64,000 nt of DNA from Paenibacillus sp. V4I3 (GTDB lineage Bacteria; Bacillota; Bacilli; Paenibacillales; NBRC-103111), in assembly GCF_030817215.1 (NCBI RefSeq), contig NZ_JAUSZA010000001.1, forward strand, positions 6,484,501 to 6,548,500, read 5' to 3'. Below, piece after piece: positions 62,675 through 64,000 of the stretch. Position numbers and translations under genes: made by a program. The stretch's first letter is position 1. The number at the start of each line of letters is the position of its first letter. Below the pieces are notes generated by a model. That model was not told where the DNA came from and did no database searches. It saw only the letters and a program-made list of their open reading frames with translations.

Positions 62675-63343
62675 TTATATTGCTTTTCTTGCTTCCTTTA
62701 GTCTCTCAAGCTCCTGCCTTACATCTTCTTTGAAGGCTAGATCCGGAACGCTAATCGTTGAGGCGCTAACCATTTGGTTCACCCTAAGCGTTGCAGCGGC
62801 TTTAGCTTCTAACTGCCAGATATGTTCCTCCATTCTAATGAAGTTTTTCCGAATGTTCTCGGCATCAAGCGAGTAAATCGTACTATTCACGTTTTGAATG
62901 GCATGAGCTGTATTTGTTCTGGACAAGTAGAATAGCTTTTTGTTTCCCAGCTCGTCATATAGCTCCATCAACTTTTTCAACTGGTCTTCTAAAGCCAAAG
63001 TCTGCTGCTTCATAGCCTCATATTGCTCTCGGTACACCTTAAGCTTTCTCTCACTTGTTAGCTTCTCCTCCACTGCCATCTGCGCAATTTCTTCCTCATT
63101 CCGGTCGATGGCGATATTCGCTTGGCGGATGCGCTTCTGAACAATATGATCCAGCTCGGTGATCATGACTTCATACTTCCGTTCGGCGATCAGCTGATTC
63201 GATAATGCAAGCTTCGCTTCGGCGATCTTTTCTTCCAGTTCCCTAATATATTGCTTAACCATAATAAGCGGGTTTTCCATCTTATCAAGTACCTCATTGA
63301 TGTTAGCCATAGCGATATCGTTCACACGTTTAAAAATGCCCAT
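62675..63343 (-). CDS. pspA: PspA/IM30-family membrane-stress protein
   Basis: This is a coiled-coil protein of about 222 residues with the family start MGIFKRVNDIAMANINEVLD and MENPLIMVKQYIRELEEKI, then long heptad helices. PspA proteins form oligomers that bind stressed membranes. The start at 63343 has AAGGAGG. It overlaps the upstream membrane-protein gene by 14 nt, so the two are coupled. The promoter upstream carries phased direct repeats, suggesting control by a two-component regulator. Confidence 0.93.
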   Translation of the reverse strand: MGIFKRVNDIAMANINEVLDKMENPLIMVKQYIRELEEKIAEAKLALSNQLIAERKYEVMITELDHIVQKRIRQANIAIDRNEEEIAQMAVEEKLTSERKLKVYREQYEAMKQQTLALEDQLKKLMELYDELGNKKLFYLSRTNTAHAIQNVNSTIYSLDAENIRKNFIRMEEHIWQLEAKAAATLRVNQMVSASTISVPDLAFKEDVRQELERLKEARKAI

Positions 63344-63650
63344 TTTCCTTATCCTCCTTAAGTAGGTTTCGTTCCCATTGGTCCAAGGCGAATGCCCGCT
63401 GCGCAGATGGCGCATTATACATGACGGAATGCTCGTCCGTAATGAAAGTTGGCAGAACCAAGTGGTTTATATCGGTTCTTCTTTTTTTGATTTTCTTCCA
63501 AAATACCCATGCAATGATAATAAGTAAGAGTCCGATTGCAATAACAAGGATAGGTCCACCATGGAATTCGTGGTGATAATGACCATTTGCAAATCCCTCT
63601 GAGAACTGGTTACCGGCGTTAAACCGGCCTCCCGGATTTTCATGCCTCAT
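63330..63650 (-). CDS. His-rich single-pass membrane protein upstream of pspA
   Basis: This protein of about 106 residues has a polar N-terminal segment with NGHYHHEFHGG, one membrane helix (ILVIAIGLLLIIIAWVFW, about residues 34-51) and a basic cytoplasmic tail (KKIKKRRTD). The start at 63650 has GGAGG; the frame extends 33 codons further into the promoter. It could recruit PspA to the membrane, as LiaI does for LiaH, or sense metal through its His cluster. Both are inference. Confidence 0.8.
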   Translation of the reverse strand: MRHENPGGRFNAGNQFSEGFANGHYHHEFHGGPILVIAIGLLLIIIAWVFWKKIKKRRTDINHLVLPTFITDEHSVMYNAPSAQRAFALDQWERNLLKEDKENGHF

Positions 63651-63692: not shown

Positions 63693-63768
63693 AGTATAGA
63701 CCCGGTTTCTTAAAAGACAGTTAAAACCAACTGAAAGACGGTTGAACATTGACTGAAAGTCTGCTGAA
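63693..63768 (-). promoter_or_regulatory. pspA-operon promoter with six 11-bp direct repeats
   Basis: Read on the minus strand from 63768: TTCAGC, TTCAGT, TTCAAC, TTCAGT, TTAACT and TTAAGA begin every 11 bp (63703-63768), and TATACT (63693-63698) lies 15 nt after the start of the last one. This is the arrangement of an activator binding on one helix face upstream of a -10 box, like PhoP/OmpR-family sites. Confidence 0.7.
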
Positions 63769-63835
63769 AAAAAGCCCTTATTTTCTGTTTCCTAGCCTTG
63801 AAACAACCTAGCTCCCATGCCGGGCCAACTCATGC

Positions 63836-63863
63836 AATAAGCTGGCGAACTCGCCAGCTTATT
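63836..63863 (+). terminator. Terminator-like 13-bp hairpin between divergent promoters
   Basis: AATAAGCTGGCGA pairs perfectly with TCGCCAGCTTATT around a 2-nt centre, followed by TTTGTC on the plus strand. It lies between the two divergent promoters, where no gene ends, so it may insulate them or end antisense transcripts. Confidence 0.75.
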
Positions 63864-63899
63864 TTTGTCTTCAGTGAACGCACATTACCTTGAGATTCT

Positions 63900-63953
63900 T
63901 TCAGCAAACATTCATTTAATACTCAAGTTAAGTTCAGTTTTGGCTTTTATACT
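63900..63953 (+). promoter_or_regulatory. Divergent promoter with matching 11-bp repeats
   Basis: TTCAGC (63900), TTCATT (63911), CTCAAG (63922) and TTCAGT (63933) are spaced by 11 bp. TATACT (63948-63953) lies 15 nt after the start of the last one, the same geometry as the pspA-side promoter. The ribosome site AAAGGTGG (63980-63987) follows. Confidence 0.65.
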
Positions 63954-63997: not shown

Positions 63998-64000
63998 TTG
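63998..64000 (+). CDS. Possible start of a plus-strand gene cut by the window end
   Basis: AAAGGTGG at 63980-63987 is followed after 10 nt by TTG as the last three bases. The true start may be this TTG or a codon beyond the edge. The promoter architecture suggests co-regulation with pspA, for example a two-component system. Confidence 0.3.

Follow-up and report, generated by a model that had tools for sequence, protein, structure and literature searches.

The window analysed here is a stretch of 64,000 nucleotides, genome positions 6484501-6548500, from the 8.17-Mb single-contig genome of Paenibacillus sp. V4I3, and two divergent promoters lie near its right-hand end. The leftward promoter precedes a gene for a small His-rich protein (63330..63650, minus strand; 106 aa from the ATG at 63650), with one membrane helix predicted by eye and no Pfam match, and a gene for a PspA/IM30 family protein of 222 aa (62675..63343, minus strand). 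The latter matched PF04012 with 97.5 bits, where the gathering cut-off is 33.9, over residues 2-218 of 222, placing it within the family. The locus had been read beforehand as an operon for a His-rich membrane protein and PspA behind an array of repeats, and this gene reading is upheld. The right-hand gene contributes its first codon to the window (63998..64000, plus strand) and continues past it. A response regulator had been expected here; instead, the gene encodes a 321-aa NAGPA phosphodiester glycosidase (PF09992; L005:1998-2963) and is followed by a gene for a GT2-GtrA protein (L005:2969-3979). The right-hand neighbour was therefore discarded as a candidate regulator.

Upstream of the His-rich gene, six hexamers are arrayed on the minus strand (63708..63768): TTCAGC (63768-63763), TTCAGT (63757-63752), TTCAAC (63746-63741), TTCAGT (63735-63730), TTAACT (63724-63719), and TTAAGA (63713-63708). 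We predict that this array is a tandem site for a PhoP-like regulator. The predicted -10 element of the His-rich/PspA promoter, TATACT (63693..63698, minus strand), starts 15 nt past the start of the last box. On the NAGPA side, four boxes occupy 63900..63938 of the plus strand, TTCAGC (63900-63905), TTCATT (63911-63916), CTCAAG (63922-63927), and TTCAGT (63933-63938), and the predicted -10 element of the right-hand promoter, TATACT (63948..63953, plus strand), again starts 15 nt past the start of the last box. Recomputing these features from the sequence gave 11 bp at every step of both arrays and 15 nt to both TATACT elements; the box letters, phase, and spacing in the original prediction were exact to the base. 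The last box of either promoter stops 9 nt short of the -10, leaving it uncovered, and a consensus promoter scan of the window found a -35/-10 pair at neither TATACT. The stretch between the divergent promoters holds a hairpin that resembles a terminator and has a T tail (63836..63863, plus strand), although this is a weak call, with one such hairpin found versus 0.7 expected in shuffles. A transcript end would be unexpected at this place, and the hairpin may be a relic of a lost gene.

We scored arrays by a box matrix combined with a -10 term. The PspA-side array scored 49.5 and the NAGPA-side array 37.5, while 200 dinucleotide shuffles of the entire window peaked at 28.3. A second matrix, trained on boxes from elsewhere, gave 46.6 and 36.8 for the two arrays (the shuffle maximum belongs to the full matrix, not to this one), and the reversed window returned nothing. 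When three boxes were sought loosely, with as many as 3 mismatches, the window showed no excess (9 matches versus 9.2 expected). Genome-wide, at 1 mismatch, two boxes with a -10 were found 24 times versus 26 in the reversed control, which is no excess; three boxes were found 26 times versus 7 in the reversed control, and three boxes with a -10 were found 10 times versus 0 for the reversed pattern. The signal resides in arrays of at least three boxes and is clearest when a -10 follows the three. The pattern TTMA-N7-TTMA-N11-TATAMT was uninformative, as 14 of its 22 matches belong to another, unrelated promoter family, approximately TTCATNTGGCATTAAT followed by TATAAT (L010, L012-L015, L017-L019, and L023-L028; match at 1501-1532).

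Homologs of the His-rich protein were found in 7 of 98 other genomes (8 of 99 when the present genome is counted). The PspA-side array stands upstream of the operon in all seven relatives, and in six it is intact, all six boxes being present and TATACT keeping its 15-nt spacing. The His-rich promoter of genome G044 has weaker boxes, of which a stricter scan counts three. In relative L086 four boxes remain in register, boxes 5 and 6 are gone, and a -10-like TATAC begins 19 nt past the start of box 4. The original prediction had been staked on relatives that keep the pspA operon also keeping the boxes and their phase; six of the seven do, and L086 does so in part. In five relatives of the same genus, the ORF upstream of his-rich/pspA is different each time, and the array is retained. 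When seven promoters were aligned, five box positions had a majority identity of 0.94 compared with 0.65 for the spacers (p 2e-8; L086 omitted from this count), and the -10 was invariant across all seven. On the other side, a NAGPA match was found in 12 of 60 genomes, the present one included, and an array of at least three boxes was found upstream of none of the 11 other homologs, two of which have a weak pair. Because the array is missing before these 11 homologs, the NAGPA-side half of the pair is lineage-specific. The NAGPA protein is 65-68% identical to homologs outside the genus versus 61-64% inside it; since the out-of-genus homologs are closer, this hints that the gene was acquired recently or horizontally.

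These patterns bear on two ways of discounting the arrays. T-rich tracts at an 11-bp phase can bend DNA, and the phased boxes might accordingly reflect bent DNA or chance repetition with no specific protein involved. However, it is the box positions, CAG included, that are conserved relative to the spacers across the seven promoters, and the reversed controls yield few matches or none. We rejected this explanation on the shuffles, the reversed controls, and the box conservation; the conservation pattern largely refutes it already, and we find it scarcely credible. A doubtful reading, though one with points in its favor, holds that the PspA-side array is the sole functional one and that the NAGPA-side array is a recent accident or a new recruit. 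Consistent with this, none of the 11 NAGPA homologs has an array of three or more boxes, the PspA-side array stays with his-rich/pspA despite changed neighbors in five relatives, and the NAGPA side has just four boxes, two of them weak. Yet the NAGPA-side score lies well clear of the maximum from the 200 shuffles (37.5 versus 28.3), its TATACT spacing is exactly 15 nt, and NAGPA and the GT2-GtrA protein could suit an envelope regulon.

Besides the two in the window, arrays were found at 12 further places in the genome, some of them weak, using pattern matches, a matrix scan of the stretches around those matches, and inspection by eye. Six boxes precede each of a gene for an RND/MacA-like adaptor with ABC parts, a gene for a predicted secreted protein of 366 aa, and a truncated HtrA gene; eight boxes precede a gene for a predicted secreted protein of 561 aa. 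A YkcB-type GT39 gene has five boxes, which overlap its annotated start and lack a good -10. Four boxes precede genes for an ApbE protein, a PrsA/SurA-like foldase (with CATAAT), a YceI protein (poor -10), a PepSY_TM protein, and a beta-lactamase-fold hydrolase (poor -10). Three boxes and a weak fourth precede an OmpR-family response regulator gene with its kinase gene, and an amino-acid permease gene has a weak array of three. The -10 is poor or displaced at the GT39, YceI, hydrolase, and permease sites. The predicted targets are mostly envelope-related, the amino-acid permease being an exception. The HtrA gene (L006:3925-4230, genome about 5157924-5158229) is cut to 101 aa, and its homology to the G044 HtrA spans just residues 26-113 of 300; its six-box promoter is intact, with the last box at L006:4337.

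Among the pattern matches of the genome, the sole response regulator gene behind a TTCAG array was the one at 490581-491285, which adjoins a histidine kinase gene, and we took its product as the candidate regulator. The protein matches OmpR/PhoB-type models and structures over its full length and has both the receiver and the winged-helix domain. The arrays likewise have the features of OmpR/PhoB sites, namely direct repeats, a helical-turn (11-bp) phase, and an adjoining -10 at 15 nt. The geometry of the window promoters had been taken as a sign of this family, and both the geometry and the class of regulator were guessed rightly, an OmpR-family gene lying behind a similar array. Among the best 25 of 104 matches to named NCBIfam equivalogs (MtrA, PhoB, YycF, BaeR, CpxR, and others), none reached its cut-off; the regulator scored 205.8 for MtrA, where the cut-off is 300, and 205 for PhoB, where it is 296.2. 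Among the matches from a scan of named genomes, its nearest relatives are in Paenibacillus sp. Root444D2 (99%) and in Soil750 and P. alba (96% each). Its own promoter deviates in the present genome, with TTTAGG as the fourth box and GATACT at 16 nt. At L069 (genome 1061188-1061219, minus strand), two TTAAG-type boxes and TATAAT stand upstream of a different response regulator gene, which is perhaps a paralogous autoregulated system.

The association of the array with this regulator recurs across genomes. At least three phased boxes lie directly upstream of the regulator gene in 30 of 30 loci (the best 30 of 72 matches, present genome included; 28 were assessed by an automatic filter, L106 and L116 by reading). 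The regulator very probably also controls its own gene. The original prediction had one regulator, perhaps encoded just beyond the window, governing the PspA module and itself; the array before its own gene in all 30 loci supports self-control, but the location was wrong, the candidate gene lying 6.06 Mb from the window along the contig, or 2.1 Mb should the contig close into a circle. G044 carries the genes for the regulator, the kinase, HtrA, the His-rich protein, and PspA side by side, and arrays precede those for the regulator, HtrA, and the His-rich protein. Across 99 genomes, the pattern of three boxes with a -10 matched in 70, while the reversed pattern gave two matches in all. With the regulator called present at E 1e-60, the pattern matched in 62 of 72 genomes that have it versus 8 of 27 that do not (p 1.4e-7, uncorrected for shared descent); outside the genus, the figures were 33 of 43 versus 7 of 26 (p 1e-4, likewise uncorrected). 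In a partly overlapping sample of 299 genomes of the class, with the regulator threshold at E 1e-75, matches occurred in 22 of 57 genomes with the regulator versus 10 of 242 without it (p 5e-11, again with shared descent uncorrected), and the reversed pattern matched 5 of the 299. Under the strict pattern, no array was found in 10 of the 72 regulator-bearing genomes of the 99-genome set and in 35 of the 57 of the class sample.

A scan of named bacterial genomes returned at least 578 proteins related to the regulator, and the analysis covered the 80 best loci. These include Paenibacillus, Cohnella, Brevibacillus, Neobacillus, and Thermoactinomyces, and also Desulfotruncus, Desulfosporosinus, Moorella, and Alicyclobacillus. 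The 80 loci hold 97 arrays with a -10, compared with 0 in reversed sequences, and in 33 of the 80 such an array lies no more than 200 bp upstream of the regulator gene and on its strand. An ORF was assigned to 93 of the 97 arrays (four have none assigned); 35 precede the regulator and 15 precede a YkcB-like GT39 gene, identified by a sequence pattern. An array with a -10 was present at 58 of 69 loci with at least 63% identity, and thus missing at 11, versus 2 of 11 loci with at most 50%. We call the former orthologs, although at least L230, one of two copies in P. prosopidis, could be a paralog. Dropping the -10 raised the counts to 60 of the 69 ortholog loci (reversed control, 3) and to 6 of the 11 paralog loci, with nine arrays of three boxes (reversed control, 1); because of the latter count, related regulators may use related boxes. 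Of the 69 named ortholog loci, 60 were parsed and 9 were not, and 45 of the 60 have at least three boxes, on either strand, upstream of the regulator. The -10 spacing was 15 nt in 90 of the 97 arrays, a tally biased towards 15 because the scan covered spacings of 14-16 only and subtracted 2 bits at 14 or 16.

Repeats with an 11-bp phase occur in several known systems, and TTCATA-type 11-bp repeats are those of B. subtilis YclJ. In a phmmer ranking against solved structures, the best relative of the regulator was M. tuberculosis PhoP (E 2e-53). PhoP binds TCACAGC-N4-TCACAGC, with a strict 4-bp spacer, as a tandem dimer; its binding is tighter on triple and quadruple repeats, and its cooperative dimers extend to trimers and tetramers on longer repeats (PMC4832192). 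Within a footprinted region, TGTTTCAGC has been assigned as a PhoP repeat (PMC3413638). The present arrays share with these sites the 11-bp head-to-tail phase (7-bp boxes plus a 4-bp spacer) and the CAG(C) core, whereas the 5' half of the box is TTT here and TCA in PhoP sites. Three base-contacting residues of PhoP, N212, E215, and Y217, are kept in the regulator, and three are changed (V213 to I, S216 to V, Y220 to S). N212 and E215 were reported to contact the CAGC part of the box, while V213, S216, and Y220 mainly contact the 5' part, which Y217 also touches (PMC4832192). We infer that the kept residues match the shared CAGC and the changed residues match the differing 5' part, although the kept Y217 contacts the 5' part. 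Further differences from PhoP are arrays of up to 8 boxes, targets predicted to serve envelope protection, and a different phylum. By pairwise ranking the regulator is a relative of PhoP; we do not claim membership in PhoP proper, because recognition residues and box letters differ in part and the assignment uses pairwise ranking only.

Three other systems were compared by their boxes and targets. The Streptococcus CiaR box, NTTAAG-N5-TTTAAG, resembles the present sites in its 11-bp direct repeats and in having htrA as a target, but it has TTAAG instead of TTCAG, and its published consensus is of two boxes (PMC4938410). B. subtilis CssR, with the box TTTTCACA, controls htrA and htrB, is autoregulated, and has a putative box at prsA; its CACA contrasts with CAG(C/T) here (PMC6749698). 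Clostridioides difficile RR_1586 has a repeated DRTTAAGNWWW, an 11-nt direct repeat, and binds upstream of its own operon, though with a TTAAG core and other targets (PMC6222199). By analogy with these descriptions, the mode of action here would resemble that of PhoP, CiaR, CssR, and RR_1586. As models, we rejected MprA, whose motif in C. glutamicum is TKTTAAGAAM (PMC12113857), and Streptomyces CutR, whose motif is TAWATAAA (PMC12802291). In the open-access literature, covered mainly as titles and abstract openings and with subscription papers mostly outside its scope, we did not find a description of the present regulon.

Our main reading is that a single OmpR/PhoB-family regulator, the PhoP relative encoded at 490581-491285, uses the two arrays as activator sites and that its regulon concerns the envelope and includes PspA; we give this reading a probability of roughly 0.8. 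It draws on the observed geometry, recurrence, and conservation of the arrays, on their link to the regulator gene, and on the kinship with PhoP. It is unlikely, in our estimate, that another OmpR-family protein of this genome, whether a paralog or one resembling CssR or CiaR, occupies the boxes, with the PhoP-like regulator as just another target. The repeat letters of CiaR, CssR, and RR_1586 (DRTTAAG) are similar, HtrA is a target in the CiaR and CssR systems as it is here, and three-box arrays appear at 6 of the 11 paralog loci once a -10 is no longer required. Against these points stand the array before the PhoP-like regulator in all of the best 30 of 72 loci, its presence with relatives in other lineages such as Desulfotruncus and Moorella, the contrast between 58 of 69 ortholog and 2 of 11 paralog loci for arrays with a -10, and a CAG core that fits PhoP and not the CssR or CiaR boxes. 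Repression by the regulator on these arrays strikes us as highly improbable. Some family members do repress from sites over the core promoter, and Streptomyces CutR is described as both repressing and activating (PMC12802291), but both window promoters leave the -10 uncovered, 9 nt beyond the last box, and the lack of a consensus -35/-10 pair at either TATACT fits dependence on an activator.

Under the main reading of a PhoP-like activator, binding, activation rather than repression, dependence on phosphorylation, and a stress signal are what we infer. The kinase would sense an envelope or secretion fault, as the targets suggest, and the regulator would become phosphorylated. Each TTTCAG(C/T)-like box would then take up one phosphorylated monomer, building a head-to-tail row along the array in 11-bp steps. 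The monomer closest to the promoter, lying about where a -35 element would be expected, would recruit RNA polymerase to TATACT, a class II activation suggested by the geometry, and boxes farther upstream would add cooperativity. In this way the regulator would activate its own gene, the His-rich/PspA operon, and further genes for the envelope and for secretion quality. PspA and the His-rich protein would form one arm of the response, beside the foldase, the protease (a remnant here), the exporter, and cell-surface glycosylation. On sequence grounds, the arrays make up a genuine regulon whose activator is of a known type, and most likely the sensor-regulator pair switches on an envelope-protection program that includes PspA. 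More tentatively, and with less than even confidence, we propose a single ancient envelope/secretion-stress regulon spanning Bacilli and the Desulfotomaculum/Desulfosporosinus/Moorella lineages, in which a PhoP-like regulator polymerizes on 3-8 boxes and box number is a tunable gain; in Paenibacillus, PspA, HtrA, a MacA-type exporter, and YkcB-type glycosyltransferases would come under one switch.

Known routes of PspA control include LiaR, SigW, and PspF. In B. subtilis, LiaR (with LiaH) and SigW control PspA-family genes, LiaR being a NarL-type regulator with inverted repeats and SigW a sigma factor. Control of a PspA-family gene is shared with the present case, but the route suggested here is of the OmpR type, unlike those of LiaR, SigW, and PspF. 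The analysis also offers a proposed binding site, a promoter rule, and a target list for an uncharacterised two-component system found in many Bacillota. Arrays in our scans range from 3 to 8 boxes, and this range suggests, by analogy with the tighter binding of PhoP on longer repeats, that array length may set affinity or gain. Natural promoters with 3 to 8 boxes provide material, in a soil bacterium and not a pathogen, on how box number relates to the response of a PhoP-type activator. At L210 of Paenibacillus glycinis, an eight-box array lies on the minus strand approximately 145 bp before the regulator, where it precedes a YkcB-like glycosyltransferase gene divergent from the regulator gene.
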